Shown: piece after piece, positions 14,363-62,126 of the stretch
Layout: each line of letters starts with the position of its first letter
How positions within the stretch are numbered: the stretch's first letter is position 1
DNA from: Candidatus Krumholzibacteriota bacterium
GTDB lineage: Bacteria; Krumholzibacteriota; Krumholzibacteriia; JAJRXK01
NCBI GenBank assembly: GCA_029262065.1
Contig: JAJDAC010000027.1
Span: forward strand, 434,001 to 498,000
DNA: 64,000 nt
Direction: 5' to 3'
Made by a program: the position numbers and the translations under genes
The notes under the pieces: model-generated
Seen by the model: only the letters and a program-made list of their open reading frames with translations
The model's database searches: none
Told to the model about the DNA's origin: nothing

Positions 14363-14965
14363 ATGCGCATCAAGTTCAACTGGTCCTACGTCTGGTCCGT
14401 GCTGGCTCTGCTACTGGCCGTGCAATGCACATTCCTATCGATGCAGAACCGCAAGCTGGTGCAGGTGGCGAAAGCGTTCCAGGCGAAGTCGGAAGACACC
14501 ACAATTGCCGTGGGCGAATCGCTCACAACTCTGAGCGTGCAAACGCAAGGAGGCGAAAACCGGACTCTCGACCTGGCATCGGGTCAGGGGACGGCACTGG
14601 TGTTCTTCTCGCGCGACTGTGGCGCCTGCCAACAGTCGATGAACCTGTGGAATCCCTGGATGACTTCGCTTCCCAACGAGATGGCCGCGCGCGTAGTGGC
14701 GATCGAGGTCGATCCGGAGAGTATCGCCTCGATGCCTCATCTGGGGGGTGCGGTGGAGACGGTCGGCACATCGCTGCAATCGGTTCGGGAAATCATTGCG
14801 GCGCTACCGACCACGGTGCTGGTTGATGGCCAAGGCACCGTGGCTGGTACCTGGCGGGGAGCGGCCTCGGACTTGGCGCTCGAGGAGCTGGATGGTCGGC
14901 TCCGAAATCTGGTTGCCCCCGCCGAATCAAACTTCGCCAAGCTCCTGGCGAAATCTCGCGACTGA
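14363..14965 (+). CDS. Membrane-anchored thioredoxin-like protein
   Basis: 200 residues. A single N-terminal membrane helix (VWSVLALLLAVQCTF) anchors a periplasmic thioredoxin-like domain with the active-site pair Cys86/Cys89 in FFSRDCGACQQS. ALPTTVLVDGQGTVAGTWRG supplies the cis-Pro segment and the following strands, so the fold is complete and TlpA/ResA-like. It lies 25 bases before a small secreted protein with four cysteines in its mature part. That fits a role in folding or reducing that peptide or the Cys-rich proteins further downstream; this is inference. Confidence 0.85.
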   Translation: MRIKFNWSYVWSVLALLLAVQCTFLSMQNRKLVQVAKAFQAKSEDTTIAVGESLTTLSVQTQGGENRTLDLASGQGTALVFFSRDCGACQQSMNLWNPWMTSLPNEMAARVVAIEVDPESIASMPHLGGAVETVGTSLQSVREIIAALPTTVLVDGQGTVAGTWRGAASDLALEELDGRLRNLVAPAESNFAKLLAKSRD

Positions 14966-14990: not shown

Positions 14991-15275
14991 ATGCAGAAAG
15001 CAATCTTCGTCCTGTGCATCCTCGCCGTACTTCTTGGCATCAACACGTGGGTGGGCAGTCGTGAGGCCGCGGCCTACTCGATCTTCCCCATTGGTGGTGA
15101 CATGGAGGCCGTAGCCTGTCAGGTTTCGGGCACCGCGTCTTCGGGCGGCATTGTCGTATCAACGCAAAGCTGTGGTCGTCTGGGCGCGCGTAGCGTCTTC
15201 GAATGTGCGTTCGCGTGTTCTATCTGGGCCAGCGAATTTGGCGGCAACGTCAGTGGGCGGATCATTCCCAACTGA
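14991..15275 (+). CDS. Small secreted four-cysteine protein, unknown family
   Basis: 94 residues. A signal peptide (MQKAIFVLCILAVLLGINTW ... SREAAA) is followed by a ~66-residue mature region with four cysteines (VAC, QSC, FEC, FAC) in a Gly/Ser-rich context. It is too short and unusual to assign. The frame continues upstream, but ATG 14991 has a ribosome site (AAGGAAC) and begins a clean signal peptide. The preceding gene encodes a CxxC thioredoxin-like protein, so the two are probably functionally paired. A hairpin follows the stop. A bacteriocin-like or redox-sensing peptide is possible but unproven. Confidence 0.72.
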   Translation: MQKAIFVLCILAVLLGINTWVGSREAAAYSIFPIGGDMEAVACQVSGTASSGGIVVSTQSCGRLGARSVFECAFACSIWASEFGGNVSGRIIPN

Positions 15276-15449: not shown

Positions 15450-15968
15450 GTGCCCCACGTAGTCGAAAGCGCCGCCAGCGGACGCGCCAAGTGTCGCGGT
15501 TGCGACAAGTCCATCGCCAAGGGCCAGCTGCGTTTTGGCGAGCGGCTACCCAACCCCTTCGGCGACGGCGAGATGACGCTCTGGTTCCACCTGGAGTGTG
15601 CGGCCTGCAAGCGCCCTGAGCCGCTGTACGAGACCTTGAACACCACCGAAGAACCCATCGACGGAATCGAGCGGTTACGCGAGGTGGCCAAATTTGGCCT
15701 GGCACACCGCCGACTGCCTCGACTCAGCCAAACCGGGCGAGCGCCTACGGGCCGTGCGCGGTGTCGCAGTTGTCGCGAGCTCATTGCCAAGGGTGCCTGG
15801 CGAATCGCCATTGTGTACTACGAGGAAGGGCGATTCGAAGCGGCCGGGTTCATCCACGCGAAGTGCTCATCGACCTACTTCGAAACGGCCGACATCGTCG
15901 AACGCATTCAGTGCTTCTCGCCAAACCTGTCCGAGTCTGACCTGCGGGAAATCGAGCGCGAACTCTAG
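15450..15968 (+). CDS. Double PARP-type zinc-finger protein
   Basis: 172 residues with two copies of a PARP-like (zf-PARP) finger. Finger 1: SGRAKCRGCDKSIAKGQLRF ... WFHLECAAC, ligands Cys15, Cys18, His47, Cys50. Finger 2: TGRARCRSCRELIAKGAWRIA ... FIHAKCSS, ligands Cys105, Cys108, His136, Cys139. In eukaryotic PARP1 and DNA ligase III this fold recognises DNA breaks. Bacterial proteins with only such fingers are known but little studied. No catalytic domain is present. GTG 15450 has a strong AGGAGG site. The gene is not clearly in an operon; the GTATCA element for the next gene starts 17 bases after its stop. Confidence 0.83.
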   Translation: MPHVVESAASGRAKCRGCDKSIAKGQLRFGERLPNPFGDGEMTLWFHLECAACKRPEPLYETLNTTEEPIDGIERLREVAKFGLAHRRLPRLSQTGRAPTGRARCRSCRELIAKGAWRIAIVYYEEGRFEAAGFIHAKCSSTYFETADIVERIQCFSPNLSESDLREIEREL

Positions 15969-15984: not shown

Positions 15985-16018
15985 GTATCAAAACCCAACC
16001 GCGGTGCCCATCTTCACG
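15985..16018 (+). promoter_or_regulatory. GTATCA element upstream of KKC cassette 1
   Basis: Sequence order: GTATCA at 15985-15990, 12 variable bases, then GGTGCCCATCTTCACG. It is one of the four best copies of the window-wide element and lies 113 bases before the start codon. The spacing would allow GTATCA to be a -35-like element with a -10-like CATCTT about 18 bases later. Confidence 0.6.
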
Positions 16019-16096: not shown

Positions 16097-16564
16097 ATGA
16101 ATATCCGCAAGGCTCTGTCGCTCGCAGTAGTGGCCCTTTCCTTGTTTGCCTTGGCCACGGCCGTTGGTTGTGGTGAAGAGTCGAGCATCCAGGGACCAAC
16201 GTCTGTTTCGGGCAAAGCGATTCAGTCGGGCCCCGTCGGCTCGGCCCCCGAATACGAAGTTCGCGTTGATGAGATCGCCGAATTGGCGTCGTCGGGAAAC
16301 GTGCGTGGAGCGGCCAAGGCCACCAATGCACTGTTTCGCGATCTGGGTGAGTCGGTTGGGTCCGGTGAAGTGTCGTCGTCCGACGCGGAGGGCGTCATCG
16401 AGGCCACGCAAACCGCCGTACAGGACATCGACATTGATATCGAATTCGGCACCAACAAGAAATGCAGCGCTACGTTCACGTGCGTGAAGGACACGCAGAT
16501 GTGCCTGATCGTGACCTGGCACGTGGAAGACGTCGGCGGCGGCACGAACTGCTTCAATTTCTAG
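16097..16564 (+). CDS. KKC-family type A: small lipoprotein with C-terminal four-Cys module (cassette 1)
   Basis: 155 residues. The signal peptide ends in a lipobox (TAVGC, Cys25). A helical Glu/Ala-rich middle region follows (VRVDEIAELASSGNVRGAAKATNALF, EATQTAVQDIDIDIEFG). The C-terminal module is KKC-x3-FxC-x6-C-x4-W ... GGxNCFNF, with cysteines spaced C-x5-C-x6-C-x15-C. The same spacing occurs in three other small secreted proteins in this window. The type A copy at 38,995 matches it along the whole length. I do not recognise the family. Four cysteines and an exported location suggest two disulfides. The gene is followed after 37 bases by a type B partner and then by the sdp operon. Confidence 0.85.
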   Translation: MNIRKALSLAVVALSLFALATAVGCGEESSIQGPTSVSGKAIQSGPVGSAPEYEVRVDEIAELASSGNVRGAAKATNALFRDLGESVGSGEVSSSDAEGVIEATQTAVQDIDIDIEFGTNKKCSATFTCVKDTQMCLIVTWHVEDVGGGTNCFNF

Positions 16565-16601
16565 ACTATTACCAGCAAACCGTTGGAAAAGGAGACGTAT
16601 C

Positions 16602-17102
16602 ATGAATCGCGTATTCTCTCGCATTCGAACCACGGTGACCCTGCAGGCCACGCTGGTGTTGGTCATGGCCGCGTCCGTCGCGGGCGCGGGCGAGGTTTCG
16701 TCGGGACAGCCAGGAGACCTCGAGCCAAACTCCACCACCGAAGCGCTCGAAGCGGCCATCTACGACCAGGGCTTCTCGGACGACGTAACGGCGCAGGCCG
16801 TGGCTCTGTTGAACGACGCGTCGGCTAGTGTGGGCGACATCGCCGAGCTTGCGGCGGTAACCACGGAGCTGGCGAACGTGTTGGTGGCGCCAGAATCAAG
16901 CTCGGCTGACTTCCTCGCCGGTTTCTTCAACGACTACGAAGTCGTGTTCAACGAACAGGGCGCAGCCGATTGGGACATCGACCCCAATCCACTCAAGAAG
17001 TGCAGTCGGACATTCACGTGTGTGTGGCGTTCGTACATCTGCATTCGCATTACGTGGAGCGAGCCCGGTGGTGGAGGCGGCGTGAACTGCATTTCCAAGT
17101 AG
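16602..17102 (+). CDS. KKC-family type B: small secreted protein with C-terminal four-Cys module (cassette 1)
   Basis: 166 residues. A cleavable Sec signal (LVMAASVAGAGE) replaces the lipobox of type A. A helical region follows (EALEAAIYDQGFSDDVTAQAVALLN, VTTELANVLVA), then the module KKCSRTFTC ... CIRITW ... GGVNCISK with the invariant C-x5-C-x6-C-x15-C spacing. The 39,581 protein is its closest relative, sharing the NCIS ending and a helical middle region. It is presumably co-transcribed with the type A gene and stops at a strong terminator. Function is unknown. Confidence 0.85.
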   Translation: MNRVFSRIRTTVTLQATLVLVMAASVAGAGEVSSGQPGDLEPNSTTEALEAAIYDQGFSDDVTAQAVALLNDASASVGDIAELAAVTTELANVLVAPESSSADFLAGFFNDYEVVFNEQGAADWDIDPNPLKKCSRTFTCVWRSYICIRITWSEPGGGGGVNCISK

Positions 17103-17128
17103 TTTGTGCCGTTGCAATTGTCAGGCAG

Positions 17129-17160
17129 AAGCCGGCGCGTTTTTTCGCGCCGGCTTTTTC
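17129..17160 (+). terminator. Rho-independent terminator after KKC cassette 1
   Basis: A perfect 11-bp stem (AAGCCGGCGCG/CGCGCCGGCTT) with a six-T loop is followed by TTTCTTT. This is the best terminator in the window. It separates the cassette from the sdp operon, so the two are distinct transcripts. Confidence 0.92.
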
Positions 17161-17169
17161 TTTGCGCGT

Positions 17170-17203
17170 GTATCACCACCGCGAGTCGACGCCCATATTC
17201 ACG
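17170..17203 (+). promoter_or_regulatory. GTATCA element upstream of sdpC-like gene
   Basis: TGTATCA (GTATCA at 17170-17175), 12 bases, then GACGCCCATATTCACG. The second half is nearly identical to the copy upstream of KKC cassette 2. It lies just after the terminator and 150 bases before the ATG, so it is placed as the promoter or operator of the sdp operon. Confidence 0.6.
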
Positions 17204-17319: not shown

Positions 17320-18171
17320 ATGCTAACTCGCATTCACGATCATCTCGTCAACAACGCGCTTCTATTGATTCCCATGCTCGTAATCTTCACCATGACTGCA
17401 TGTGAAGACGGAGTTACCACTCCCGAAGAGATGGAATCGAAGTTCCGTGTGCAGGGTGTAAAAAACCTGAAGGGTGAGGACTACTTCAACGGAGTGTTCT
17501 TCGGTCGCGGTGCGGTGGCTGACGCCATCCCCGAAATTCGGGACGTGTACTCGATGTCGACCGGCGGCCTATCCGATGAAGATCTGGCGGCCGCCGAGGC
17601 CGATCAGGATCGGCTCGTGCAGTTGATGAAGGATCGGGACCCGACCTTCTTCGATCGCTTCGAGAGCGCAGTGGAAAGTGGTGACCAGGTGGCCATCACG
17701 TCTGCGATCGACGAAGGATCGGCGTTGGCCACGCTGTCGTTCCTGGACACCCCCGAGGGCCGCGCTGCGTTTGACGACGCGCAAACACCCGAGAACATCA
17801 CCGAGATCACGGCGCAGTTCAATGCGCAGCAGAGCACCAAGCAACTGACCGAGTCCGAGGTAGAGGCCATTCTTTCCGATGTGGACGAATGGTCGAAGTC
17901 CGACGGCGCGGCGGCCAATGCTTCGGCCAACAAGCTGTGTCTGGTGCTGGCTATCGTCGTGTTGGCCGTGCTCCTGCTGGCGTTGCTCATTGGCATCGTC
18001 GTAGGACTCGCGGTGTGGTTGGCGATCTGGCTGTGGACGTACTTCTGGAGCGCCTTGTCGGCCAACCAGTCGTACACCGAGCTGCAGGTCGAGCAGATGA
18101 TCGGCTCACTGGCTGATACCTACGGTGGTGGCGGCATCACCCCGGTCGAGCCGGTGTTTGAACTGAGGTAG
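17320..18171 (+). CDS. SdpC-family antimicrobial/toxin peptide precursor
   Basis: 283 residues. LKGEDYFNGVFFGRGAVADAI (residues ~50-70) matches the conserved GEDYFxGxxFGxGxV segment that follows the signal in Bacillus SdpC. Upstream is a lipobox-like FTMTAC (Cys28), so this form is probably a lipoprotein. An acidic helical pro-region leads to a ~41-residue hydrophobic segment (residues ~206-246, KLCLVLAIVVLAVLLLALLI ... YFWSALSA), the counterpart of the mature pore-forming SDP peptide, and then a short soluble tail. It has a single Cys (Cys207), whereas Bacillus SDP has a Cys pair forming a disulfide. AAGGAGG lies just before the ATG. The sdpA- and sdpB-like genes follow, which confirms the family. 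Confidence 0.88.
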   Translation: MLTRIHDHLVNNALLLIPMLVIFTMTACEDGVTTPEEMESKFRVQGVKNLKGEDYFNGVFFGRGAVADAIPEIRDVYSMSTGGLSDEDLAAAEADQDRLVQLMKDRDPTFFDRFESAVESGDQVAITSAIDEGSALATLSFLDTPEGRAAFDDAQTPENITEITAQFNAQQSTKQLTESEVEAILSDVDEWSKSDGAAANASANKLCLVLAIVVLAVLLLALLIGIVVGLAVWLAIWLWTYFWSALSANQSYTELQVEQMIGSLADTYGGGGITPVEPVFELR

Positions 18172-18214: not shown

Positions 18215-18235
18215 AACTGACAGGAGACATTGGCA

Positions 18236-18904
18236 ATGAAAATCGAAACGACAAGAGGACTCGCACGTGTTGTGCTCGTCGGCTTCTGGACATGGTTCGT
18301 GCTGACCGTGTTCTTCGGCGCAATACCCGATAGCCCGATGCGTTTGTCCAAGAAGAATCACATGCAGCTCATGTCGGTGATCCCCGAGGGCTGGAGTTTC
18401 TTTACGCGCAATCCCCGCGAAGATCACACGTTCGTGTACCAAAGAACAGAGGCGGGCTGGGAACAGTTGAATCAGCGTGTCGCCAGTCGTCACAGTTGGT
18501 TCGGATTGAACCGTAGAATCCGCTCCCAGGGCGTGGAATTGGGTGGGCTGTTGGCGCGAGTCGCCGAAGAAGATTGGACCCGGCACGACGACCCCTTCGC
18601 GTTCGACGCGGTTCTCGATTCCATCCCCCGTATTGAAGCCCCGAACTCCTCGCACACCGAAACCATGTGCGGCGAGTTGCTCATTGAGAAGAAGGCGCCC
18701 GTACCCTGGGCCTGGAGTGGATCCAAGCGTCAGGTGCGCATGAAAGCGAAGTACGTGCGCGTGGCGGCCGACTGCGATGCCGAGCCCATGAAGATCGATT
18801 TGTCGGGCATGGGCCGAATGTTCCCTGCGCCACCACCGGGTAACGACACTGACACAGAAACTGAAACTGAAACCGAATCCACTCAGCCGACGACCGAGGA
18901 GTGA
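18236..18904 (+). CDS. SdpA-family antimicrobial peptide maturation protein
   Basis: 222 residues from ATG 18236 (AGGAGA upstream). An N-terminal membrane segment (VVLVGFWTWFVLTVFFGAI) is followed by the SdpA hallmark VIPEGWSFFTRNPREDHTFVYQ. In Bacillus, SdpA is a cytosolic or membrane-associated protein which, with SdpB, is needed to make active SDP from SdpC. This copy has an Asp/Thr/Glu-rich tail (residues ~200-222, TDTETETETE). A Cys pair later in the protein (MCGELL, DCDAEP) could be structural. It is followed 3 bases later by sdpB. Confidence 0.88.
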   Translation: MKIETTRGLARVVLVGFWTWFVLTVFFGAIPDSPMRLSKKNHMQLMSVIPEGWSFFTRNPREDHTFVYQRTEAGWEQLNQRVASRHSWFGLNRRIRSQGVELGGLLARVAEEDWTRHDDPFAFDAVLDSIPRIEAPNSSHTETMCGELLIEKKAPVPWAWSGSKRQVRMKAKYVRVAADCDAEPMKIDLSGMGRMFPAPPPGNDTDTETETETESTQPTTEE

Positions 18905-18907
18905 GTC

Positions 18908-19885
18908 ATGAGTAACCAACAAACGAACCCCATCATTCCCTGGAGCAACGTGTACGGCCTGGCGCGTACGCTGCTGGCTCTGGGTACGATGATCACGCTG
19001 GGACTCTCTTCACCGTACGACATCTTCCAGCCGCTTGGGTCTGGATTGCACGGGTTGGCCGACCAGGCGTTCCCCGCGAAGTACGGACTGTTTTTCTTGT
19101 TCGAGCCGCATCAGATCAATCTGGCTCGCTGGATTGCCGTGGCGGTGTTGGCGGTGGCGGCTTCTGGCTGGCGTCCTCGTTTCACGGCCCCGTTTCATTG
19201 GTACGTCACGGCGAGTCTGTCCACCAGCGCGATCGTGCTCGATGGCGGCGATCAGGTTTCGAGCGTGCTGACGTTTCTCATTCTTCCCATAGCATTGACC
19301 GACGGTCGCAAGTGGCATTGGTCGCGCGCGCAAGCCAAAGCGGTACAGGGACACCGAGGTGCAGTGGCCGGCCTGGTTGCCTTGTCCGCGCTTTGGATCC
19401 TGCGTTTGCAAGCGGCGGTGATCTATTTCAACGCAGGCATCGCCAAGATGTTCGTGGAAGACTGGAACAACGGGACAGCGCTCTACTACTGGACCGTGCA
19501 TCCTGTGTTCGGCGCACCGGATTACCTGCGTCCGGTGTTGACCATCTTGCAGAACCCCATGGCGGTAACCGCAATTACATGGGGTGTCATGTTGTTCGAG
19601 GTAGTGCTGGCGTGTGCGCTCTTCATGCGCAAGCGATACTGGGCTCCGTTCCTTTTGGCAGGCATCGCCTTCCATATAGGGATTGCCATGTTGCACGGGC
19701 TGATCAGCTTCGGGCTCGCTATGGCCGCCATGTTGTTGTTGTTCCTGCGGCCGGTTGAGAACGAGTTCCGGTTGGCCCCACCTACCTTCTCGCTCGAGGG
19801 TCTTCGGTCTCGGTTGGGTTTCAGCCAGCGTACTCCCCTACCCGATGCCGCGTTCCAGGAGACGGCATGGCCAGAAACGCCTTGA
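18908..19885 (+). CDS. SdpB-family HTTM membrane protein
   Basis: 325 residues with about eight membrane helices. It begins NVYGLARTLLALGTMITL, the conserved opening of SdpB, and carries HTTM-type features: VIYFNAGIAKMFVEDWNNGTALYYW and LLAGIAFHIGIAMLHGLISF. In Bacillus, SdpB is a multipass membrane protein required with SdpA for SDP maturation. GAGGAG sits 6 bases before the ATG. No SdpI (DUF1648) immunity gene or SdpR-like repressor lies next to it, so immunity must be elsewhere or provided differently. Confidence 0.88.
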   Translation: MSNQQTNPIIPWSNVYGLARTLLALGTMITLGLSSPYDIFQPLGSGLHGLADQAFPAKYGLFFLFEPHQINLARWIAVAVLAVAASGWRPRFTAPFHWYVTASLSTSAIVLDGGDQVSSVLTFLILPIALTDGRKWHWSRAQAKAVQGHRGAVAGLVALSALWILRLQAAVIYFNAGIAKMFVEDWNNGTALYYWTVHPVFGAPDYLRPVLTILQNPMAVTAITWGVMLFEVVLACALFMRKRYWAPFLLAGIAFHIGIAMLHGLISFGLAMAAMLLLFLRPVENEFRLAPPTFSLEGLRSRLGFSQRTPLPDAAFQETAWPETP

Positions 19886-19990: not shown

Positions 19991-20024
19991 GTATCAAACA
20001 GCCACCTCGGCGCCCATCTTCTCG
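19991..20024 (+). promoter_or_regulatory. GTATCA element upstream of S8 lipoprotein gene
   Basis: TGTATCA (GTATCA at 19991-19996), 12 bases, then GGCGCCCATCTTCTCG: one of the four strongest copies. It is 144 bases before the GTG start of the S8 lipoprotein. Confidence 0.6.
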
Positions 20025-20134: not shown

Positions 20135-21424
20135 GTGACTCAAGTACGCTGGTTGCTTCTGGTGTCTCTGGTTTTTCTTTCCGCGTGCGGCAGATCCGAA
20201 ACGAGTCCGCTCGATCCCATGGGCAAAGTTGCACCATCAATGGTCGAGCCCGGAGAACCCAGGTCTGGCGGTGGCAAGGAAGATGGCGTGGTTGTCATAG
20301 GTCCTCCGACCCAACCTCCGTCCTTGCTTACACCGCCCTCGCAGTCCCAATGGGTTGTGGTGTACGACCCCGAAGAAGAGACGATCGAAAATATCGCCGC
20401 CGGGCTTTCGATGACCGTGGTGAAGACGTACGGGTACGACCTTGCGCTGTTGGAAGAGACTGCAGCTTACAGTTCGACGTTGGGACCGCCACCGTCCGGT
20501 GTCGTGGTCATGCAGACCAACGACCCCGCGAACATGACGCATAGTCAGGACCTGGTGTTTGGTTTCTACGAAGGTTGGCTCGAGTCGGAGGTAAACGAGC
20601 AGTACATGAATACGCTGCTCGACTTCGGTAGTTTGCACGCGAAGAATCAAGGTCAGGGCATCAAGGTGGCGATTCTCGATACTGGCGCAGATGTCACGCA
20701 TTCGTGGTTTAACGACTCTTTGCTGGAATTGGCCCCACAGCTACCGTTGCAGTCGCGCGAGATCTACAACGGCATCGACGACGACGAGAACGGAACCGTG
20801 GACGATGGAAAAGGTCACGGCACGGTGTGCGCGAGTATCATCAAGTCAGTTGCCCCGCTGGCGGACATACTTCCCATTCAGATCCTGAGCGACGAAGGCA
20901 TTGGAAGTGTTTGGGATCTTACCGTGGCTATGGAAATAGCACGGTGGCAGGGCTGCAATATCGTGAACATGAGTCTTTCGCTCAGCGCGTTCAGTCCGGT
21001 CGTCGAGCATCGGCTGAACGTGTTGGAGGCCGCTGGCGTAAGCGTGATTTGCGCCACGGGAAACCAGAGCACCGTAGTGAGCTACCCTGCGTCTTCGGCC
21101 AAGGCCATCGGCGTCGCGGCCAGCGACGATGTAGATGACATTGCCTACTTCTCGAACACCGGTGTCGGCGCAATGTTCGCGGCTCCTGGTGTGGCCATCG
21201 TGGCGGCCTACCCCGAGGAAGGCATGGTGTCGGCTACGGGCACGAGCATGGCGTGCCCGGTCGCAGCGGCGACGCTCGCGCTTGTGGCGTCCTACACTTC
21301 CCTCACCACATTTCAGGCCATGAGCTGGATCGTGGGCTCGGTTGTCCCGGTGGATCCGTCGGGCGCGGTGGAGCAAGGGCGCGTCTCTCCTTTGGGGGCG
21401 CTGCTGGATTTCGACAACCGCTAG
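20135..21424 (+). CDS. S8 subtilisin-like lipoprotein peptidase
   Basis: 429 residues from GTG 20135 (AAAGGAG upstream). The lipobox is LSAC, Cys18. The catalytic residues are Asp182 (ILDTGAD), His228 (GHGTVCAS), Asn310 and Ser371 (GTSMACP), all present. The His motif is HGTVC rather than the usual HGTHV. An acidic IDDDENGTVDDG insert precedes the His. The ~140-residue N-terminal region ends in DLVFGFYEGWLESEVNEQYM, shared with the S8 gene at 51.1 kb and partly with the other two. The product is probably a surface- or periplasm-facing protease. It lies just downstream of the sdp operon and shares its upstream element, so a role in processing secreted peptides is an attractive but unproven idea. 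Confidence 0.93.
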   Translation: MTQVRWLLLVSLVFLSACGRSETSPLDPMGKVAPSMVEPGEPRSGGGKEDGVVVIGPPTQPPSLLTPPSQSQWVVVYDPEEETIENIAAGLSMTVVKTYGYDLALLEETAAYSSTLGPPPSGVVVMQTNDPANMTHSQDLVFGFYEGWLESEVNEQYMNTLLDFGSLHAKNQGQGIKVAILDTGADVTHSWFNDSLLELAPQLPLQSREIYNGIDDDENGTVDDGKGHGTVCASIIKSVAPLADILPIQILSDEGIGSVWDLTVAMEIARWQGCNIVNMSLSLSAFSPVVEHRLNVLEAAGVSVICATGNQSTVVSYPASSAKAIGVAASDDVDDIAYFSNTGVGAMFAAPGVAIVAAYPEEGMVSATGTSMACPVAAATLALVASYTSLTTFQAMSWIVGSVVPVDPSGAVEQGRVSPLGALLDFDNR

Positions 21425-21493: not shown

Positions 21494-21755
21494 AACTTGT
21501 TTATTCATATAGTTTTATAAGACCCACCCCCCGAACTTTCACCTTTTCTGTGTGTTTTCGCTCGACGGTGAACTGCGCCACTCCGCATGGTGCCTCGATG
21601 GGGTGAAAAAAAGCGGGTTGAAACCGTTTGTCCAAACCGGAAGACTTAAGGGGAAGAGGCCAAACGAAGGATCGCAAAGCCCCGTTCAGACGGACCCACA
21701 ACTCAGCCTACTCATCAGAACGCAGGCGCTCTCGCGTTCGATAAGGGAATTGCCA
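21494..21755 (+). other. Leader region of the giant surface-protein gene, non-coding
   Basis: About 260 bases of lower GC with AT-rich stretches (TTATTCATATAGTTTTATAAG near 21500). The giant reading frame is open from 21552, but no signal-peptide-like start appears until GTG 21756. I see no tRNA or convincing riboswitch. It is a long 5' leader, with promoter-like AT-rich sequence at its left end. Confidence 0.4.
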
Positions 21756-38875: not shown

Positions 38876-38909
38876 GTATCACCGAGCGACCTGGACGCCC
38901 ATATTCGCG
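38876..38909 (+). promoter_or_regulatory. GTATCA element upstream of KKC cassette 2
   Basis: CGTATCA (GTATCA at 38876-38881), 12 bases, then GACGCCCATATTCGCG. It matches the copy before sdpC at 15 of 16 positions in the second half. It is 119 bases before the start codon, close to the 112-base offset seen at cassette 1. Confidence 0.6.
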
Positions 38910-38994: not shown

Positions 38995-39462
38995 ATGACT
39001 ACTCGCAAGATCCTCTCTCTCGCTCTCATCGCCTGTTCCTCGCTTACACTGCTTACGGCCGTTGGTTGCGAAAACTCTTCCAACATCGCTGGGCCCGAGT
39101 TGGGCCAGGAAAAACTACGTTCGGTGAAGCCCATTGGCGTCGAATCCGAGTATGACCTGCGCGTTGAAGAGATTCGCTCGCTGGCGGAAACCGGCGACGT
39201 GGAAGCTGCCGCCGAAGCAACCAACTCTCTGTTTGCCGATCTGAGCCGTGACGCCGAGTCCGGTGCAGTCGGCCAAGCCGAGGTCGAAGATGTCGCAACC
39301 GCTACGCAGAACGCGGTGCAGGACATCGATATCGACATCAGCTTTGGAACGAACAAGAAGTGCGATGCTCAGTTCAATTGCGTTGCCGACGAGCAGATGT
39401 GCCTGATCGTTATCTGGCGCGTCGACGAAGTTGGCGGCGGCAAGAACTGCTTCAACTTCTAG
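38995..39462 (+). CDS. KKC-family type A: small lipoprotein with C-terminal four-Cys module (cassette 2)
   Basis: 155 residues from ATG 38995 (GGAGG upstream; the longer frame to 38380 lacks a signal). The lipobox is TAVGC, Cys25. The middle helix (LRVEEIRSLAETGDVEAAAEATNSLFADL) and AVQDIDIDISFGTNKKC align without gaps to the 16,097 protein; even the total length is the same. The terminal module is KKCDAQFNC ... CLIVIW ... GGGKNCFNF with spacing C-x5-C-x6-C-x15-C. The two copies are clear paralogues from a cassette duplication. Function is unknown. Confidence 0.85.
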   Translation: MTTRKILSLALIACSSLTLLTAVGCENSSNIAGPELGQEKLRSVKPIGVESEYDLRVEEIRSLAETGDVEAAAEATNSLFADLSRDAESGAVGQAEVEDVATATQNAVQDIDIDISFGTNKKCDAQFNCVADEQMCLIVIWRVDEVGGGKNCFNF

Positions 39463-39580: not shown

Positions 39581-40066
39581 ATGTTTCGCTCAATTCTCAT
39601 CGCACTAGTCGTTTTTTCGTTCGCCCTGGGCGTGGTGCCCAATGCTCACGCGGGACGCGCTCAGCTGGGCGGGCCCGTCGAGACCACCGACCAGGCGTAC
39701 GTGGATCTACGTACGACCATTCAGGGCGGGGATATTGATTCCCGCGCCAAGTCTGAGTTGTTGGCGCTGGCCGACAATGCCTACGCGTCGCGGTCCAGCT
39801 ACGAAGACTTCCTGGCCGCTACCAACAGCTTCGCGGCTACGTTGATCGAATCGGGAGCCGACGCTGCGTACACGGGCGCCGTACTGGACGGCTACTCCGA
39901 GGCCCTGCAGGCCGAAGAGATCGAGTACGACATCGTTCCGCATTTCTTCAAGAAGTGCGATGCGCAGTTCAATTGCGGCAAGCCGGGCAACATCTGCGTG
40001 ATCATCTCGTGGAGCGACCCCAACGGCAGCGGCGGATCCAACTGCATCTCGCCGACCATCAGATAG
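39581..40066 (+). CDS. KKC-family type B: small secreted protein with C-terminal four-Cys module (cassette 2)
   Basis: 161 residues. A cleavable Sec signal ends near PNAHA|GRAQL. A helical region follows (DSRAKSELLALADNAYASRSSYEDFLAATNSFAATLI), then KKCDAQFNC ... CVIISW ... GGSNCISPTIR with C-x5-C-x6-C-x15-C. The first Cys segment, KKCDAQFNC, is identical to that of its type A partner although the N-terminal halves differ. That suggests gene conversion or shared selection on the module. A DUF1573 protein gene follows after 87 bases. Confidence 0.85.
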   Translation: MFRSILIALVVFSFALGVVPNAHAGRAQLGGPVETTDQAYVDLRTTIQGGDIDSRAKSELLALADNAYASRSSYEDFLAATNSFAATLIESGADAAYTGAVLDGYSEALQAEEIEYDIVPHFFKKCDAQFNCGKPGNICVIISWSDPNGSGGSNCISPTIR

Positions 40067-45545: not shown

Positions 45546-48500
45546 TCACTCCCAACGACCCGACCCCGCGAAGCTCGCCCAGTAGAAAGGGTGCGTGCTC
45601 TGGCCCGAAGCACGTCGCTGTGCCAACACCCGCCGACTTGCTTCACGAACCGAGTTGGCCGTATCCAGCCCGTCGCGTAGCCGTGCCGTGTACAATTCGT
45701 TCATCCAGTCGCGTGTCGCGTTGTCTTCCACCGCCCACAAACTTGTTATGACGGTCGCCGCGCCGGCAATGCGGAACGAGCGGCGTAATCCCAGTACGCC
45801 CTCGGCCTGTACCAGCTTACCCAGGCCCGTGTCGCAGGCCGAAAGAACCGCCCACTCCACGCCGCGCAGATCGAGACAGGCGATTTCTTCGGCGGTGAGA
45901 ATGCCGTCGTTGGCACCGTAGCCGTCGCGGTGGTTGGCCCCGGCCAATGCCAGGCCTGAAAGGCGGAAGGTTTCGCCCACCGCGTCCGCGCTAGACCAGG
46001 ATGGCGCCAGCCCGCCCACGCCGCGAAGCTGTGGCTCCTCTTTGGCGCACTCACCACCCAGGAAGAAACCGTGGGTGGCAAAGTGCAGCGTGGCGTATTG
46101 GGTTGCCTGTTCGCGCACGGCCCTTTCGCTCGCCTCGCCCTTGCTCAGCAACAGCGCCTTCGAATCGAGCGAGTCGCCCCAGAGGCGTGCGATGGATTGG
46201 GCCTCTTCGCCACTGGCGGGCAAGGGCTTGAAGTTCACGTCCTGGAAAGACTCGCAGTCAGATATGCCGCGAAGGTACGCGGGTACCGTTTCCTGCGGTT
46301 GCAGTTCGGACCCGTTCGTGGCGTCGAAGTCGGCGCCACCCAGCACCAGCAGTCCCGTGGCCTTGGGATGGGGATCGCGTGGCAGCAGCAGGTCACGCTC
46401 GCTGCTAAGCAGATGCAACAGGGGACCCTTCTCTACGAGGTACGTGTTGTCCCGGTTCGGTAGCGCGCCGAACGGCAGGAAGTGCAAGCGGTCATCGGGC
46501 ACCACCAACACCATGTCGACCTGCGCGACCAGATTGGCGATAGGATCCCACACCAACTCGCGCATGCGTTGTCCGCGTTCCAGTGCCAGGGTGGCTTCGC
46601 CCGAAGCGGGCACCGTTTGGATGGACTCGCGCCACAGTGCAAGTGCAGTGTCGATGGTCTGGGCGTTGCCCAGATCCACGATTTCCACCTGGGTGTGACC
46701 GGTCACGATCGCAAAGTAGGAGCCGGTATGGTCCTCGAACGTGCGTGCGGGCTGAACGTACCAGTAGGACACGACCACCGACTTTTCCGGCATCGCCGCG
46801 CGCAGATCGGCCAGGTTCAACTCGCGTTGGACTTCGGCGGCGGCATAGTCGATGCGGGCGAACGCAGCCTCGGCGGCTTCGAGTTCGTCGCGGAGCTTCT
46901 TGTACTGATGCTCGTGCTCCTGAGCGTTCTTCGCAGTTCGCTTCTGCGCGAAGAAAGCCAGCACGGCGTTCTGGGTCTCGGACAACGCGGCCATCGCTGT
47001 TCGGGTGGCATCGTCCTCTCTGCTCAGGAGCTGGCGCCGCCGACTCATGGTCCTATCCAAGACCACGGCCCGCGAGCGGAACGCCTCTCCCACAATGGAT
47101 TCCAGCAAGGCCCCCTGAGAGGCGTCGAGGTGCTGGGCCGCGCGAAACAGGGTAGGAGTTGCTGTGTGGCGATGCATAGCCGCGGCCGCGGCGGTGGTTT
47201 CAGAGAATCCGCCCGCCGTGAGCTGTAACTCCAGGCGCGATACGCGTTCGGCCAGCAGCGCGAACTCGATGGCCTTTTCGTAGTTGCCCAACGAGTAGTG
47301 GGATACAGCAACCATCCCGTAGGGGATGCTCAGCTCGGGGTTGTATTGTCCAAGCGCGTCAATCTGCAGCTGGAGCGATTTCTCGGCCAGCTCCAACGCT
47401 CGATCGAGGTTGCCCTTGAAGCGCTCGCATACCGACATGCTCACCATTGGCGTCGCCGCGGCGAAACTGTCGGGGCCGTGATTCGCTTCGAGGATGATCA
47501 GCGATTCTTCGAGCACCTCGCGCGCGTCATCGTAGCGCGCCGCCATGTTGTAGGAGGCGCCCAGGTTCGAAAGCGTCAGCGCCAGTCGGCCATCCTGCGC
47601 GCCAAGGCTCGTGCGTTGAATGCTCAGGGCGGTTTCGAATGCTTCGATCGCTTCTTCGTACCTGGCCATGTCCCGCAGGGCGGTTCCCATGTTCATCTGG
47701 CTCTGGGCAAGAAGTGGATGCTTGGGCCCGTACATCTTCTCACGAATCCGAATGGATTCCCTGAAGGCGGCCACCGCACGTCCTTGGTCGCCGATGGTTC
47801 GCAGCAGATTGCCCAGGTTGTTGAGCATGCCCGCCACGTTGCCGTGCTTGTCGCCCAGTGAACGCTTGAATATGTTGGTGGCGCGCTCGTTGTCGGCAAT
47901 GGCCTCGGTGAGCCGGCCCATCCGGCGGTACAGGGTCCCCCGACTGTTCAAGGCCGAGGCGATAAGGTTGCTGCCGGGTTCATAGTTCTCTTCGAAGATC
48001 CGCAAAGCGTCATTGACGTTCTCCAACGCCGCTTCAATCTCGCCCGAGCGAGACTGCACATACGCGAGCCGAATTTTCGCGCGGGCTACCAGTTTGCCGG
48101 CCGGTACCTCAGCGGCCAGGGCCTCCGCGAGTCCTTTTTCGAACCAGGAGGTAGCCGTCGTCACATCGCGTTGTGCGTAGGCCAGGTCACCAATTGCGTA
48201 CATGGTTTCCGCGCGCTCACCGCCAGACACCTCATTGCCTTGCCCGAGAATTGTCTTGGCCGTCTCAATGAGAATCGAGGCTTCCTTGTACTCGCGGGTG
48301 CTATCGAGATAGCGCGACCGTTGCCAGATAGCCGGAAGCAGGCGCGGGCTCAAAGGGCCAAACAGTTTTTCCCGCGTACGTTGGGCTTGAAGCAACCACG
48401 CGCCGAGGCTATCGGTTGGCGAATCCTGCACCGATGGAAGGACCTTGAACAGCAGCTCCACCGCGCGCGCGGCTTCGATCGAATCGCCGCCGAAGCTTGC

Positions 48501-48704
48501 CCGCGCCGCCTGCAGTTCTTGCCAGGCCAGACTCGTGGCCTCGCGAACGCGGCCGTTGTTGGCCATTTCCAGGATTTCATCGGGTGGTTCGCCATGAGCG
48601 GACGGGACGCACAGCAGTGCCGCCGCGAGCCACAGAACGCAAGTACAGATCCACCGGTACGATGGGCCACATGTCTTCATGTTGGGAGCGCCTCCCGGTT
48701 TCAT
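45546..48704 (-). CDS. TPR-CHAT caspase-like protease, exported
   Basis: 1,052 residues. The ATG overlaps the kinase stop (ATGA); a second ATG at 48680 follows GGGAGG. A signal peptide precedes SAHG|EPP. Residues ~100-480 are tandem TPRs (AGMLNNLGNLLRTIGDQGRAVAAFRESIRIRE, SQMNMGTALRDMARYEEAIEAFETALSIQR and others). The C-terminal ~300 residues are a CHAT domain. The catalytic dyad is His~878 (LHFATHGFF) and Cys~957 (LSACDTGLG), followed by EGVLGLRRSFRIAGAATVITSLWAVED. CHAT is a clan CD cysteine peptidase. The export signal is notable, since well-studied CHAT proteases are cytosolic. It is the third gene of an ECF-kinase-CHAT operon. Confidence 0.9.
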   Translation of the reverse strand: MKPGGAPNMKTCGPSYRWICTCVLWLAAALLCVPSAHGEPPDEILEMANNGRVREATSLAWQELQAARASFGGDSIEAARAVELLFKVLPSVQDSPTDSLGAWLLQAQRTREKLFGPLSPRLLPAIWQRSRYLDSTREYKEASILIETAKTILGQGNEVSGGERAETMYAIGDLAYAQRDVTTATSWFEKGLAEALAAEVPAGKLVARAKIRLAYVQSRSGEIEAALENVNDALRIFEENYEPGSNLIASALNSRGTLYRRMGRLTEAIADNERATNIFKRSLGDKHGNVAGMLNNLGNLLRTIGDQGRAVAAFRESIRIREKMYGPKHPLLAQSQMNMGTALRDMARYEEAIEAFETALSIQRTSLGAQDGRLALTLSNLGASYNMAARYDDAREVLEESLIILEANHGPDSFAAATPMVSMSVCERFKGNLDRALELAEKSLQLQIDALGQYNPELSIPYGMVAVSHYSLGNYEKAIEFALLAERVSRLELQLTAGGFSETTAAAAAMHRHTATPTLFRAAQHLDASQGALLESIVGEAFRSRAVVLDRTMSRRRQLLSREDDATRTAMAALSETQNAVLAFFAQKRTAKNAQEHEHQYKKLRDELEAAEAAFARIDYAAAEVQRELNLADLRAAMPEKSVVVSYWYVQPARTFEDHTGSYFAIVTGHTQVEIVDLGNAQTIDTALALWRESIQTVPASGEATLALERGQRMRELVWDPIANLVAQVDMVLVVPDDRLHFLPFGALPNRDNTYLVEKGPLLHLLSSERDLLLPRDPHPKATGLLVLGGADFDATNGSELQPQETVPAYLRGISDCESFQDVNFKPLPASGEEAQSIARLWGDSLDSKALLLSKGEASERAVREQATQYATLHFATHGFFLGGECAKEEPQLRGVGGLAPSWSSADAVGETFRLSGLALAGANHRDGYGANDGILTAEEIACLDLRGVEWAVLSACDTGLGKLVQAEGVLGLRRSFRIAGAATVITSLWAVEDNATRDWMNELYTARLRDGLDTANSVREASRRVLAQRRASGQSTHPFYWASFAGSGRWE

Positions 48705-50389
48705 GGCCGGGGGTTCAGGAATTCAATTTGACGATACCACAGCGCACCGTGGGGCAAGGTTGATCGTTCCAGAAGATTGGTGAGTTCGGCGATTCGGCTG
48801 CCGGCCCATTCGCCAGGGTCGCCTTCACCGGTGGCCATGCCGCCCACGCCGCGCAGAATGCTGAACTCGGCTTCGTGCAGGCTGGGGTAGGAAACGGCTC
48901 GCGTGGGGTCGGCCGGGCGAACCGCGGCCAAGACCTCTTCGAACTGGGCCAGCGGTTCAGAAGCGGCTACCACCAGGAAGCGCTCGCGTCCGCCGGCCGA
49001 GGTGACCAACCAGTCGCGGCTCTCTTCGTTGGCACTGCCCGGCAGGCGATGCAGGTCGTCGGCGGCCAGCGGGTTGGTAGGCGCCATGCCGTGCAACGGA
49101 AACAACAGGAACAGCTCGCCGTCCACGTCTTCGTTCAAAACGTATACGTGCAGGTCCTGGTCGGCCTTCAGCTCCAGACGCAGGTGCTCGCCGGGGCGAA
49201 TGGTGGAACCGTGATCCAATGGTTCGCGCGAGCCTCCGTTTACGCGGAAGAAGTTGGCTTCTGCCCGAATAGCCGTGCCACGCGGTCCACTGGCGGTGAA
49301 CGTGTCGCCCGGCTGTTGCCAGGGGCGGGTGGTGATTCCCCAGGCCAACAGTGCGATGACCGCGGCGGCGGCCATAGGCCATGCCCAGCGGGATGCCCAC
49401 CAGGAATTGCGTCGCTCCACACCCAGGGCCGCATTCAGCGCGCGCTCGAATTGGGCCATGTCGGCGTGGCGTTCGCTGGGGTCGGGACGCAGTGCCCTGT
49501 CGACTGCCGATACGAACGCAGCGGGAAGGTCAGGACGCAGGCTGCGCAGGTCGGCGCCCGATCCGTCGCGATGCGCTTCGCGTAGCGTCTCCCAGTTTGC
49601 AGCCTGTACGGGCGCGCGGCCGGTGACCAGACGAAACAGCAAAGCGCCCAGCGCGTATACATCGCTGGCCACGCTGGTGGGCTGGCCCTCGATGATTTCC
49701 GGTGCGGAGTACAACGGCGTGACGCTGGCCGGCACCGAGTCCGAGTCCTGCTCCCGTCCCGAACCGAAATCCAGAAGCACGCAGCGGCCATCGCTGTCGT
49801 GCTTCACGTTGTCGGGCTTCACGTCGCCGTGCACCATGCCGGCCGCGTGCACCGCGGCCAGGGCCGAACACATGTCCAGGCCTATGAGCGTGGCCTCGCG
49901 CGTGGAAAGCGTCTGGTCGGGGTCGAGGCGGCTGGCCAGCGTAGCGCCCTGCACCAGCTCCATCCAGATTCCGGCTTGCGACTCGTGGACGTCGGTGCCC
50001 AACACGCGCACCACGTTGGGGTGTTGTACGCGCGCCAGCCGTCGGGCTTCGTCCAGCCATCGACGCGCGCTCGAGTCTTCAGCGTGCGTACGAAGCTTCA
50101 GGGCCACTTCTTTTTGCAGGCGTTGATCCCACGCGCGGTACACCACGCCGTAACTACCGCGCCCCAGTTCTTCAACGACTTGCAGGGGGCCCCACCGAAA
50201 CAGGATTTCCGCCGGTGCTTCGCTCTTGCGGTGTTCACGGTGCACCGCGGCCACGCGCGAAATGAGTTCCAGTCCCTTCACCGGCACACCGGCGTTTTCG
50301 GGATCGCGCGTGGCCGAGCTCCAGTCGACCGGAGTCTCGTCGCTTAGATTCTGCGCCATGTCGAGTAGGCGCCTATCAGGTTTGCGCAT
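48701..50389 (-). CDS. Transmembrane Ser/Thr protein kinase with C-terminal extracytoplasmic DUF4384-like domain
   Basis: 562 residues; GAGGAG lies 4 bases before ATG 50389. The kinase domain covers ~65-325: glycine loop ELGRGSYGVVY (~74-84), Lys98 (VALKL), Glu114, catalytic loop HGDVKPDN (187-194, HGD instead of HRD), DFG 207-209 and SAPEI. A membrane helix lies at ~337-355. The outer domain (EHLRLELKADQDLHVYVLNEDVDGELFLLFP) resembles DUF4384, often found beside kinases and CHAT proteins. HGD is still compatible with activity. The start overlaps the ECF gene by 14 bases and the stop overlaps the CHAT gene. Confidence 0.9.
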   Translation of the reverse strand: MRKPDRRLLDMAQNLSDETPVDWSSATRDPENAGVPVKGLELISRVAAVHREHRKSEAPAEILFRWGPLQVVEELGRGSYGVVYRAWDQRLQKEVALKLRTHAEDSSARRWLDEARRLARVQHPNVVRVLGTDVHESQAGIWMELVQGATLASRLDPDQTLSTREATLIGLDMCSALAAVHAAGMVHGDVKPDNVKHDSDGRCVLLDFGSGREQDSDSVPASVTPLYSAPEIIEGQPTSVASDVYALGALLFRLVTGRAPVQAANWETLREAHRDGSGADLRSLRPDLPAAFVSAVDRALRPDPSERHADMAQFERALNAALGVERRNSWWASRWAWPMAAAAVIALLAWGITTRPWQQPGDTFTASGPRGTAIRAEANFFRVNGGSREPLDHGSTIRPGEHLRLELKADQDLHVYVLNEDVDGELFLLFPLHGMAPTNPLAADDLHRLPGSANEESRDWLVTSAGGRERFLVVAASEPLAQFEEVLAAVRPADPTRAVSYPSLHEAEFSILRGVGGMATGEGDPGEWAGSRIAELTNLLERSTLPHGALWYRQIEFLNPRP

Positions 50390-50954
50390 CGATCTCCTCG
50401 GCCAACCGCGCGAGCGAGCGGGTTACCGCCATCCGTGCGGCGTTGCTCGAGGGCTTGCCCAGCGCATCGGCGATCTCCTGGTAGGAATAGCCGAATTCCA
50501 CCCGAAGGATTACCGCCTCCTGGTGGTCTTCGGGCAGTTTGGCCAGCGCCGCCTCGTAGATGGCTACCGACTCGCTGCCCACGGCGTCTTCCAGGGCCGA
50601 CCGATCCGTCGACTGGATGTTTTCGTCGACCTCCTCGCGCGGAGGCCGATTCGAGTGACGACGCAACTCGTAGCGCACCGCGTTCAGGAGAATGGCCCGG
50701 ATATAGGCCAGGAACGCTCCCTCATGGCGGTGATCGAAGTCGTCTACTTTATCCAAGGCTTTCAGTAGCGAATTCTGCACAAGGTCATCGGTGTCGTGGA
50801 TGTCGCGGGCGTAGTAGGGCAAGCGCCCACTGGCCCAACGGCGCAGAAGCGGCAGGTAGCGCGCGGCCAGCTTCTCCTTGGCTGCGTCGTCGCCGTTTCG
50901 TACCAGCGACAGCAGGTCGGCGGTGGATTCCATTGGAGGCTCGTGCGGAGTCAT
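50376..50954 (-). CDS. ECF-type RNA polymerase sigma factor
   Basis: 192 residues. Region 2 is DLLSLVRNGDDAAKEKLAARYLPLLRRWA ... DTDDLVQNSLLKALDKVDDFD. Region 4 is LAKLPEDHQEAVILRVEFGYSYQEIADALGKPSSNAARMAVTRSLARLAEEI. A ~50-residue acidic linker joins them. No anti-sigma gene is adjacent; instead the next two genes encode a Ser/Thr kinase and a TPR-CHAT protease. This fits ECF groups thought to be controlled by kinase phosphorylation. It is divergent from the S8 lipoprotein gene at 51,125. Confidence 0.92.
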   Translation of the reverse strand: MTPHEPPMESTADLLSLVRNGDDAAKEKLAARYLPLLRRWASGRLPYYARDIHDTDDLVQNSLLKALDKVDDFDHRHEGAFLAYIRAILLNAVRYELRRHSNRPPREEVDENIQSTDRSALEDAVGSESVAIYEAALAKLPEDHQEAVILRVEFGYSYQEIADALGKPSSNAARMAVTRSLARLAEEIDAQT

Positions 50955-51017: not shown

Positions 51018-51051
51018 GTATCAAACTGGGTGTGGCCGGCTCATTTTCGTG
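51018..51051 (+). promoter_or_regulatory. GTATCA element upstream of S8 lipoprotein gene (51 kb)
   Basis: TGTATCA (GTATCA at 51018-51023), 12 bases, then CCGGCTCATTTTCGTG. The second half keeps GCTCATTTTCG against the stronger GCCCATATTCACG. It is 107 bases before the ATG, in the space divergent from the ECF gene. Confidence 0.5.
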
Positions 51052-51124: not shown

Positions 51125-52378
51125 ATGAATATCCTAAAACTGGTATTTCTACTGTCACTGTTCCTTGTTTCTTCATGCGCGTCCGAGGTTTCGACGCTCG
51201 CACCCGAGGTAGCCACGAAGGCTGGCATGATGGGCGGCGGCGACGGACCGGGCACGCCACCCGGCGAAACCGAGCCGCCCCCGCCCGAGACCCTTCGTGC
51301 CCCCAACAATCGCGAACATGTGGTGGTCTACGAGGCGGGTGTAGATCCGTACGACCTTGCCAACGATCTCAACATGTCCGTGGTCGATCTGTTTGGCGAC
51401 GACCTGGCGCTACTGCGAGAAACGGTCATGCCCATGATGGTTGAAGGCGAAGGCGGCGTGGTTGCTTCGTCGGTCAACGAGAGTGTGGTTTCCACCCACG
51501 GTCAGGATCTGGTGTTTGGTTTCTACGAAGGTTGGATCGAGAAGGAAGTCAGGGAACAGTACATCAACAGTCTGTTGAAGTTGCCGGCCTTGCACGAGTA
51601 CGGCCGCGGCTACGGCATCCGCGTGGCGGTTCTGGACACTGGCGCAGACTTCGCTCACCCGTCGTTCGGTGGGGTCCTGGTGTCGTTGCCCGAGGGTTCG
51701 GGTTTGATTTCCCAGGAAGTGTGGAACGGTATCGACGACGACGGCGATGGCGTGGTCGACGCGGGCAAGGGGCACGGTACCGTGTGCGTTAGCATCGTGC
51801 ACGAGGTCGCTCCCGGCGCGGAAGTGCTCCCCATCCGTATTCTCCACGACGAGGGAATCGGAAGTCTATGGGACCTGGTAAAGGGCTTGGAACTGTCACG
51901 TCATAACCAGGTGGACATCGTGAACCTGAGCCTTTCGCTCAGCGAATACAGCGCGGTGGTGGAAGACCGTCTGGTGCATCTGTACGAGGAAGGTGTCCGC
52001 GTGGCGTGCGCCACCGGCAACCAGGCCGGCGAAGTGAAGTACCCGGCCAGCTCCGCCTACACGGTGGGCGTGGCGGCCACCGACGAACAGGACATACTGG
52101 CGTGGTTCAGCAACGCGGGCGCCGGCGCGCTTATCGCCGCTCCCGGCGTGGACATCGTGGCGGCGTATCCCGAAGAGGGAATGGTCAGCGCCACGGGTAC
52201 GTCCATGGCTTGTCCGGTGGTGAGCGGATCGTTGGCCGTGATCGCCGGTTTCGAGGGATCCAATGCGCGACAGGCGACGCAGTTTCTATCTGACACTGGC
52301 GGGTCAATGACCCCGCAAGAGCTGGTCAGGCACGGCCGGGTGTCGCCTTTGGATGCGGCGCGAAGCTGGTGGCAGTGA
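51125..52378 (+). CDS. S8 subtilisin-like lipoprotein peptidase
   Basis: 417 residues from ATG 51125 (AGGGGG upstream; the frame to 51005 runs through the GTATCA element and has no signal). The lipobox is VSSC, Cys18. The catalytic residues are Asp171, His218 (KGHGTVC), Asn299 and Ser360 (GTSMACP), with the insert IDDDGDGVVDAG before His. The pre-domain ends in DLVFGFYEGWIEKEVREQYI. It is the closest paralogue of the 20.1-kb gene. It lies next to the ECF-kinase-CHAT operon but on the opposite strand, so two different proteases share this regulatory space. Confidence 0.93.
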   Translation: MNILKLVFLLSLFLVSSCASEVSTLAPEVATKAGMMGGGDGPGTPPGETEPPPPETLRAPNNREHVVVYEAGVDPYDLANDLNMSVVDLFGDDLALLRETVMPMMVEGEGGVVASSVNESVVSTHGQDLVFGFYEGWIEKEVREQYINSLLKLPALHEYGRGYGIRVAVLDTGADFAHPSFGGVLVSLPEGSGLISQEVWNGIDDDGDGVVDAGKGHGTVCVSIVHEVAPGAEVLPIRILHDEGIGSLWDLVKGLELSRHNQVDIVNLSLSLSEYSAVVEDRLVHLYEEGVRVACATGNQAGEVKYPASSAYTVGVAATDEQDILAWFSNAGAGALIAAPGVDIVAAYPEEGMVSATGTSMACPVVSGSLAVIAGFEGSNARQATQFLSDTGGSMTPQELVRHGRVSPLDAARSWWQ

Positions 52379-61350: not shown

Positions 61351-61430
61351 TCAACCAGTCGTCGTTCTCGCCGAACCCGTTTGGAACAAGGAGACTTTTC
61401 CGCACCGAAAAAAAGCCGGCCCGCATTCTT

Positions 61431-61462
61431 GTATCAAAAACAAACCTCGCAGCTCTTTCGTG
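61431..61462 (+). promoter_or_regulatory. GTATCA element upstream of 61.5-kb lipoprotein
   Basis: TGTATCA (GTATCA at 61431-61436), 12 bases, then GCAGCTCTTTCGTG. The second half is a weaker match. It lies 69 bases before the ATG, the shortest offset on the plus strand. Confidence 0.45.
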
Positions 61463-61499: not shown

Positions 61500-62126
61500 A
61501 TGACAATCACTCGCAGTATCTTTCTCGTCTTGATCGCACTCGCCGCATTCGTTGGGTGTGCTGACAACCCCACCGTTCCCGAGGCCGCCGACAAACGCCA
61601 ACTCCAGTATCTGCCTGGCCAACCATATCCCTACATCCCATGCGACCGGGCTCAGGATGTCATCGACTCGGCGCAGCAGTTGGCGAATCTGGGTGCAGTT
61701 CCCCAGTCCACGGTGAACTTCCTGAAGATCAACAGCAAGAAGCTGTGCAACAACGACACGTTCTACCGCGACGCAGTCACCGGTGTGAGCTGGCAGTTCA
61801 ACCCGGCCAAGGGTGGCGGATCGGTAGATGGCGGCACCTGGACGGTACACAACATCTTCGGCGGGCAAGTCGGTAGTGGTCAGCTGCACATCGTCACCGA
61901 CGCGGGTGGAAACATCACTGGTCACACGGCCTCCGGTGGTGTTCTGCTCGGCGAGGTCGATTCCGAGCAGATCGGTGACACCTGGGAAGAGACCTGCCCC
62001 GATGGATCCACGGTAGAGTGCGGTAGCTTTCAGTTGGAGTTCAGCCAGGGATACTCGTGGCTCATCGAGAACATCCTGAAGACTCCGACCGAAGACATCT
62101 GCGCCGACTGCCCAGTAAGTCCCTGA
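61500..62126 (+). CDS. Cys-containing lipoprotein of unknown function
   Basis: 208 residues from ATG 61500 (GGAG 7 bases upstream). The signal ends in a lipobox, AFVGC (Cys20). The mature part has about seven further cysteines (IPCDRA, KLCNND, ETCPDG, ECGSF, ICADC) and a beta-rich C-terminal half (GGTWTVHNIFGGQVGSGQLHIVTDAGGNITGHTASGGVLLG). This looks like a small beta-domain, but I cannot name a family. It has the GTATCA element upstream and a strong hairpin downstream, and it is convergent with the S8 lipoprotein gene. Confidence 0.75.
   Translation: MTITRSIFLVLIALAAFVGCADNPTVPEAADKRQLQYLPGQPYPYIPCDRAQDVIDSAQQLANLGAVPQSTVNFLKINSKKLCNNDTFYRDAVTGVSWQFNPAKGGGSVDGGTWTVHNIFGGQVGSGQLHIVTDAGGNITGHTASGGVLLGEVDSEQIGDTWEETCPDGSTVECGSFQLEFSQGYSWLIENILKTPTEDICADCPVSP

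Follow-up and report, generated by a model that had tools for sequence, protein, structure and literature searches.

This Candidatus Krumholzibacteriota genome encodes an undescribed family of small exported proteins that end in a module with four cysteines. The family is solidly established, with six known members in this one genome, and it is a set of pairs: at all three loci a lipoprotein (A) stands together with a secreted paralogue (B). Two of the pairs are likely co-regulated with an SDP-type operon and with subtilases, as judged from a common upstream element. We tentatively propose that A and B act as paired effectors in an SDP-like (cannibalism/competition) regulon, which we consider possible but somewhat short of evenly probable.

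In the window, the 64,000-nucleotide stretch of DNA that we analysed, pair 1 consists of the lipoprotein A1 (16097..16564, 155 aa, a helical domain plus the four-cysteine module) and its Sec-secreted paralogue B1 (16602..17102, 166 aa), and pair 2 of the lipoprotein A2 (38995..39462, 155 aa) and the Sec-secreted B2 (39581..40066, 161 aa). All four genes are on the + strand and each has a Shine-Dalgarno-like sequence on its 5′ side. The lipobox, TAVGC in both A1 and A2, and the Sec signals of B1 and B2 were read straight from the sequence. We could verify the coordinates and signals given in the initial annotation, which had placed two ORFs at about 16-17 kb and two at about 39-40 kb, each time with the lipoprotein before the secreted form. 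The C-termini of all four proteins follow the pattern KKC-x5-C-x6-C-x15-C. When the whole genome was searched with A1, it yielded A2 (E=3e-50), B2 (7e-9) and B1 (8e-8), so the similarity is not due to chance, and as judged from their sequences the four proteins are beyond doubt homologues. Their N-terminal halves, initially described as different, are not unrelated: A1 and A2 share 48/96 residues (50 %) in the part that precedes the module and 25/35 (71 %) inside it, and the AlphaFold2 layout is the same in A1 and B2.

The module comprises 35-40 residues, is largely polar apart from its four cysteines and is predicted to be beta. The AlphaFold2 models of A1 (pLDDT 75.5, pTM 0.66) and B2 (pLDDT 82.3, pTM 0.78), which rest on six sequences only, are alike and consist of a domain of three to four helices and, after it, the C-terminal beta module, in line with the compact fold that had been expected. 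From the export of the proteins and the conservation of the cysteines we infer two disulfides in the module. The PDB search with A1 and B2 gave no match at E<=0.001 and no meaningful match in sequence or fold; the top sequence matches were helical bundles, and many of these were designed proteins.

Using a profile, we identified pair 3 elsewhere in the genome, on contig C30. It is formed by the lipoprotein A3 (L018:9018-9566, lipobox LVAC) and its partner B3 (L018:9593-10138). The six-member profile matched exactly six proteins in the genome, which make up the three A-B pairs in the same gene order with no unpaired member. As predicted initially, the matches were restricted to small exported proteins, every one of them in an A-B pair. 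The cysteine spacing is 5/8/14 in A3 and 5/8/15 in B3, so the strict spacing claimed at first applies to pairs 1 and 2 but is not invariant in the family, where only the four cysteines are constant. In all members but A3, thus in five of the six, the first cysteine is directly preceded by two lysines.

The module was not found in 79 other genomes of the phylum, where the remaining matches were at noise level, and no relatives of A or B were confirmed in GTDB contigs, viral contigs, plasmids or phages by searches sensitive to close relatives only. The family had been called uncharacterised and this proved correct, as no family in Pfam, NCBIfam or PADLOC fits A or B and PHROGs produced only marginal matches that were not reproduced. 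One of these was phrog_6898 for A2 (E=0.006), a marginal candidate that we rejected since the genome search did not reproduce the match. The idea that the module is a sorting signal common to many proteins was rejected because only six proteins carry it. NVEALA proteins (PF14055) are small exported proteins of Bacteroidota with a C-terminal cysteine region. They resemble A and B in size, export and the C-terminal cysteine region, but PF14055 had zero matches anywhere in the genome, and membership of A and B in this family was rejected for lack of a profile match.

The description of the loci as two-gene cassettes fits pair 1 but not pairs 2 and 3, in which the order is A-B-DUF1573/Ig. The third gene after A2-B2 encodes C2 (40154..41812, + strand), an exported DUF1573/Ig-like (ASH) protein, and a gene for a DUF1573/Ig-like protein occupies the same position after A3-B3 (L018:10203-11771). 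Both proteins are 520-550 residues long, with an N-terminal DUF1573 (PF07610; E=5e-17 and 8e-15 in cassettes 2 and 3, above the gathering score) followed by further Ig/ASH-like domains, and they are 25 % identical end to end. They share the domain with other exported DUF1573 proteins but are much longer, have the extra Ig/ASH-like domains and possess a C-terminal part that is present at full length only in this genome. The full-length relative of C2 is found only after A3-B3, and elsewhere in the phylum and in the GTDB contigs it is the DUF1573 part alone that matches. Pair 1 has no DUF1573/Ig gene and is followed instead by a terminator and then by sdpC-sdpA-sdpB.

This intrinsic terminator, a strong hairpin with a T run between A1-B1 and sdpC (17126..17161, + strand, -34.5 kcal/mol, z -4.3), was seen by strand folding and was not listed by the consensus scanner. 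Downstream of it, on the same strand, are genes for an SdpC-like toxin precursor with a lipobox and a hydrophobic C-terminal region (17320..18171; TIGR04032 pro-region E=7e-19, below the curated cut-off), an SdpA family protein (18230..18904, possibly starting from the ATG at 18236) and an SdpB family protein (HTTM; 18908..19885). Because of the terminator, the sdp operon appears to be transcribed apart from A1-B1, which argues against A and B being effectors of an SDP-like regulon, and sdp genes are absent beside pairs 2 and 3. The genome encodes six SdpC-like proteins, versus one weak match across the 79 other genomes searched. The five further SdpC-like lipoproteins (L069:9717, L070:3250, L071:8575, L071:9339 and L072:9659) have variable C-termini (VPPTC..., QACSLFLVC...), and only L071:9339 has SdpA- and SdpB-like genes after it. 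Among the paralogues of the genome the pro-region is kept and the C terminus varies, with a C-x5-C start (QACSLFLVC) in the one we call S2. The Bacillus homologues of SdpC likewise differ in the C-terminal toxin part, and in Bacillus subtilis SDP begins at Cys141 of SdpC (PMC6818787).

A and B resemble SdpC/YitM-type precursors in having an export signal, a helical region and a cysteine-bearing C-terminal part; they share the C-x5-C start with S2 and the upstream element described below with sdpC. Unlike SdpC, they have four cysteines in a predicted beta module and no hydrophobic membrane-active C-terminal segment, they are always paired, and SdpA and SdpB are not in their operon, as sdpCAB lies beyond the terminator and at pair 1 only. 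We considered homology of A and B to the SdpC pro-region and rejected it, since hhalign comparisons of the N-terminal halves (A, B and A+B) with the six SdpC-like paralogues gave probabilities of 0.3-3 % and none of A1, B1, A2 and B2 matched TIGR04032. This also counts against the paired effectors proposed here; as the profile comparison gives no link to SdpC, A and B may share the SDP programme but we do not call them SdpC proteins.

Comparison of upstream regions revealed a box common to A1, A2 and sdpC, which could be extended to the bipartite element GTATCA-N15-GCCCAT[AC]TTC. The spacer between the two boxes has the same length but unrelated sequence. In the 5.77-Mb genome there are four exact matches, all in the window: upstream of A1 (15985..16018, GTATCA-N15-GCCCATCTTCACG), of the sdpC-like gene (17170..17203), of an S8 subtilase lipoprotein gene (element 19991..20024, gene 20135..21424) and of A2 (38876..38909). 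The looser pattern GTATCA-N{14,17}-GCYCNTNTTC has five matches in 5.77 Mb and none in the reversed control; it takes in a diverged element (51018..51051, GTATCA-N15-GCTCATTTTC) upstream of a second S8 subtilase lipoprotein gene (51125..52378, + strand like the first), and the element can be summarised as GTATCA-N15-GC[CT]CAT-x-TTC. All five matches are in the window, on the + strand and about 75-120 nt upstream of their genes, which belong to three unrelated exported families (A1 and A2, sdpC, and the two subtilases).

The count of elements is partly circular because the motif was derived from these very sites. Three sites gave the first box; the site upstream of 20135 turned up in a search with that box and then contributed to the definition of the GTATCA box. 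The looser pattern was widened once the 51018 site was known as a two-mismatch match. The circularity does not extend to two facts: the genome has no further match, and every match precedes a gene for an exported protein within one 35-kb stretch. Upstream of A3 the GTATCA box is present and the second box absent, leaving the pattern unmatched for pair 3. The initially suggested link to sdp and S8 genes stands for pairs 1 and 2, through the common upstream element, and fails for pair 3, which has neither adjoining sdp genes nor an element match; this again speaks against paired effectors of an SDP-like regulon. Generic scans for sigma-70 promoter and terminator consensus sequences gave nothing above chance. 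Two boxes at such a spacing would fit an alternative-sigma promoter. We also noticed a weak version of the element at 61429-61462, upstream of a lipoprotein gene at 61500, and a two-mismatch element to the left of the window (L070:16025-16055, C27:430025), directly before an ECF sigma gene that is followed by a CHAT gene. Autoregulation of this ECF sigma-CHAT operon is possible.

The nearest candidate reader of the element, by position only, is an ECF-type sigma factor (50379..50954). Its gene is in line with genes for a Ser/Thr protein kinase (48704..50389) and a TPR-CHAT (caspase-like) protein (45549..48704), all three on the - strand and divergent from the second subtilase. The adjoining kinase gene is reminiscent of kinase-linked ECF systems (ECF43 and similar groups). 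Those of ECF43 act in defence against predators or antibiotics, and their sigmas have no acidic DAED motif in region 2.2 (PMC8999054). Unlike ECF43, the system has the TPR-CHAT protein in addition, and the sigma factor keeps acidic residues that are missing from ECF43, as its DAED-like region reads DTDDLVQ.

Several other genes near the pairs are worth recording. Just upstream of A1, 15450-15968 encodes a small protein with a strong match to the PARP-type zinc finger (PF00645, E=3e-24, in two stretches), which is unusual in a bacterium. A thioredoxin/TlpA-like membrane protein (14363-14965) is followed by a small exported cysteine-containing peptide (14991-15275, MQKAIFVLC...), which could be another small exported cysteine protein with its redox partner. 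Between the two A-B cassettes of the window lies an ORF of 4144 residues (21552-33986) with repeated DUF11-like segments and OmpA-like stretches, as seen by eye.

The sequences of the pairs diverge unevenly. In the C1-x5-C2 loop, A and B of the same cassette agree at 4/5, 5/5 and 3/5 positions (12/15 in total), compared with 10/30 (mean 1.7/5) for A and B across cassettes, a concordance that comes from three pairs and is the best of six possible pairings, which weakens it as an argument for paired effectors. A requirement that A and B fit each other or a common partner would produce this pattern, which is suggestive in this sense. The C-terminal part of the module follows the type instead, with 14/19 identical positions between A1 and A2 and 11/19 between B1 and B2 versus 6-7/19 between A and B of pairs 1 and 2. 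Overall B is more diverged than A (30 % identity for B1/B2 versus 56 % for A1/A2). Over KKCDAQFNC, A2 and B2 are identical at 26 of 27 nt (approximately 39349-39375 and 39950-39976), a similarity much higher than elsewhere in the two genes. This points to gene conversion or to selection that keeps the two alike; a recent gene conversion could account for it.

The element that pairs 1 and 2 have in common with an SDP-type operon and two subtilase genes suggests, without proving it, a role of A and B in warfare between bacteria. As paired effectors, they would be paralogous two-domain exported proteins acting as a pair outside the cytoplasm, with A lipid-held in the membrane and B released. They would be made together with the SDP-type operon and the lipid-anchored subtilases from a dedicated alternative-sigma promoter. 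B would be the effector, set free and diverging fast, and A the cognate partner that stays at the membrane; in cassettes 2 and 3 the DUF1573/Ig protein may serve as an accessory. Oxidation, processing, pairing specificity and the competitive role are all features that we infer from the sequences, and the absence of any evident immunity gene or membrane-active segment in A and B counts against the proposal. A new competition module, in which homologous lipid-anchored and released disulfide proteins recognise each other via the cassette-specific first loop and a single dedicated sigma factor controls their production along with that of SDP-type peptides and processing proteases, is a more specific version that we consider unlikely.

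A somewhat unlikely alternative is a surface or matrix role of A and B (adhesive, ligand-binding) within a sigma-controlled surface or developmental programme, of which the SDP-type operon would be a mere regulon member. The element covers proteases and exported proteins generally, with a weaker copy before the lipoprotein gene at 61500, and two cassettes include a DUF1573/Ig partner, but a generic adhesin needs neither the strict A-B pairing nor a cassette-specific first loop. The constant A-B order in all three pairs, the first loop matched within each cassette, the faster divergence of B and the element shared with a toxin operon would also agree with B being a secreted toxin and its lipid-anchored homologue A an immunity or decoy protein, in line with the toxin/immunity-like pair that had initially been suggested as an alternative to a receptor/effector pair. 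We regard this as distinctly unlikely, as A and B have no membrane-active or catalytic feature and no match in PADLOC or Pfam, and they are homologous, whereas a toxin and its immunity protein rarely show homology over their full length. Least probable is a role of A and B as inhibitors of the co-regulated subtilases or as their substrates, with the two lysines as a processing site that frees a four-cysteine peptide, since the common element of the two subtilase lipoproteins and KKC in five of six members stand against the missing KK of A3, the lack of Pfam similarity to known inhibitor families and the fact that most bacterial subtilases are not dibasic-specific.

Whichever role applies, A and B extend the poorly known set of genes that accompany SDP-type killing peptides outside Firmicutes by an undescribed family of paired exported proteins. 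The five element sites in one genome constitute a concrete candidate regulon, which makes the role of A and B directly testable.
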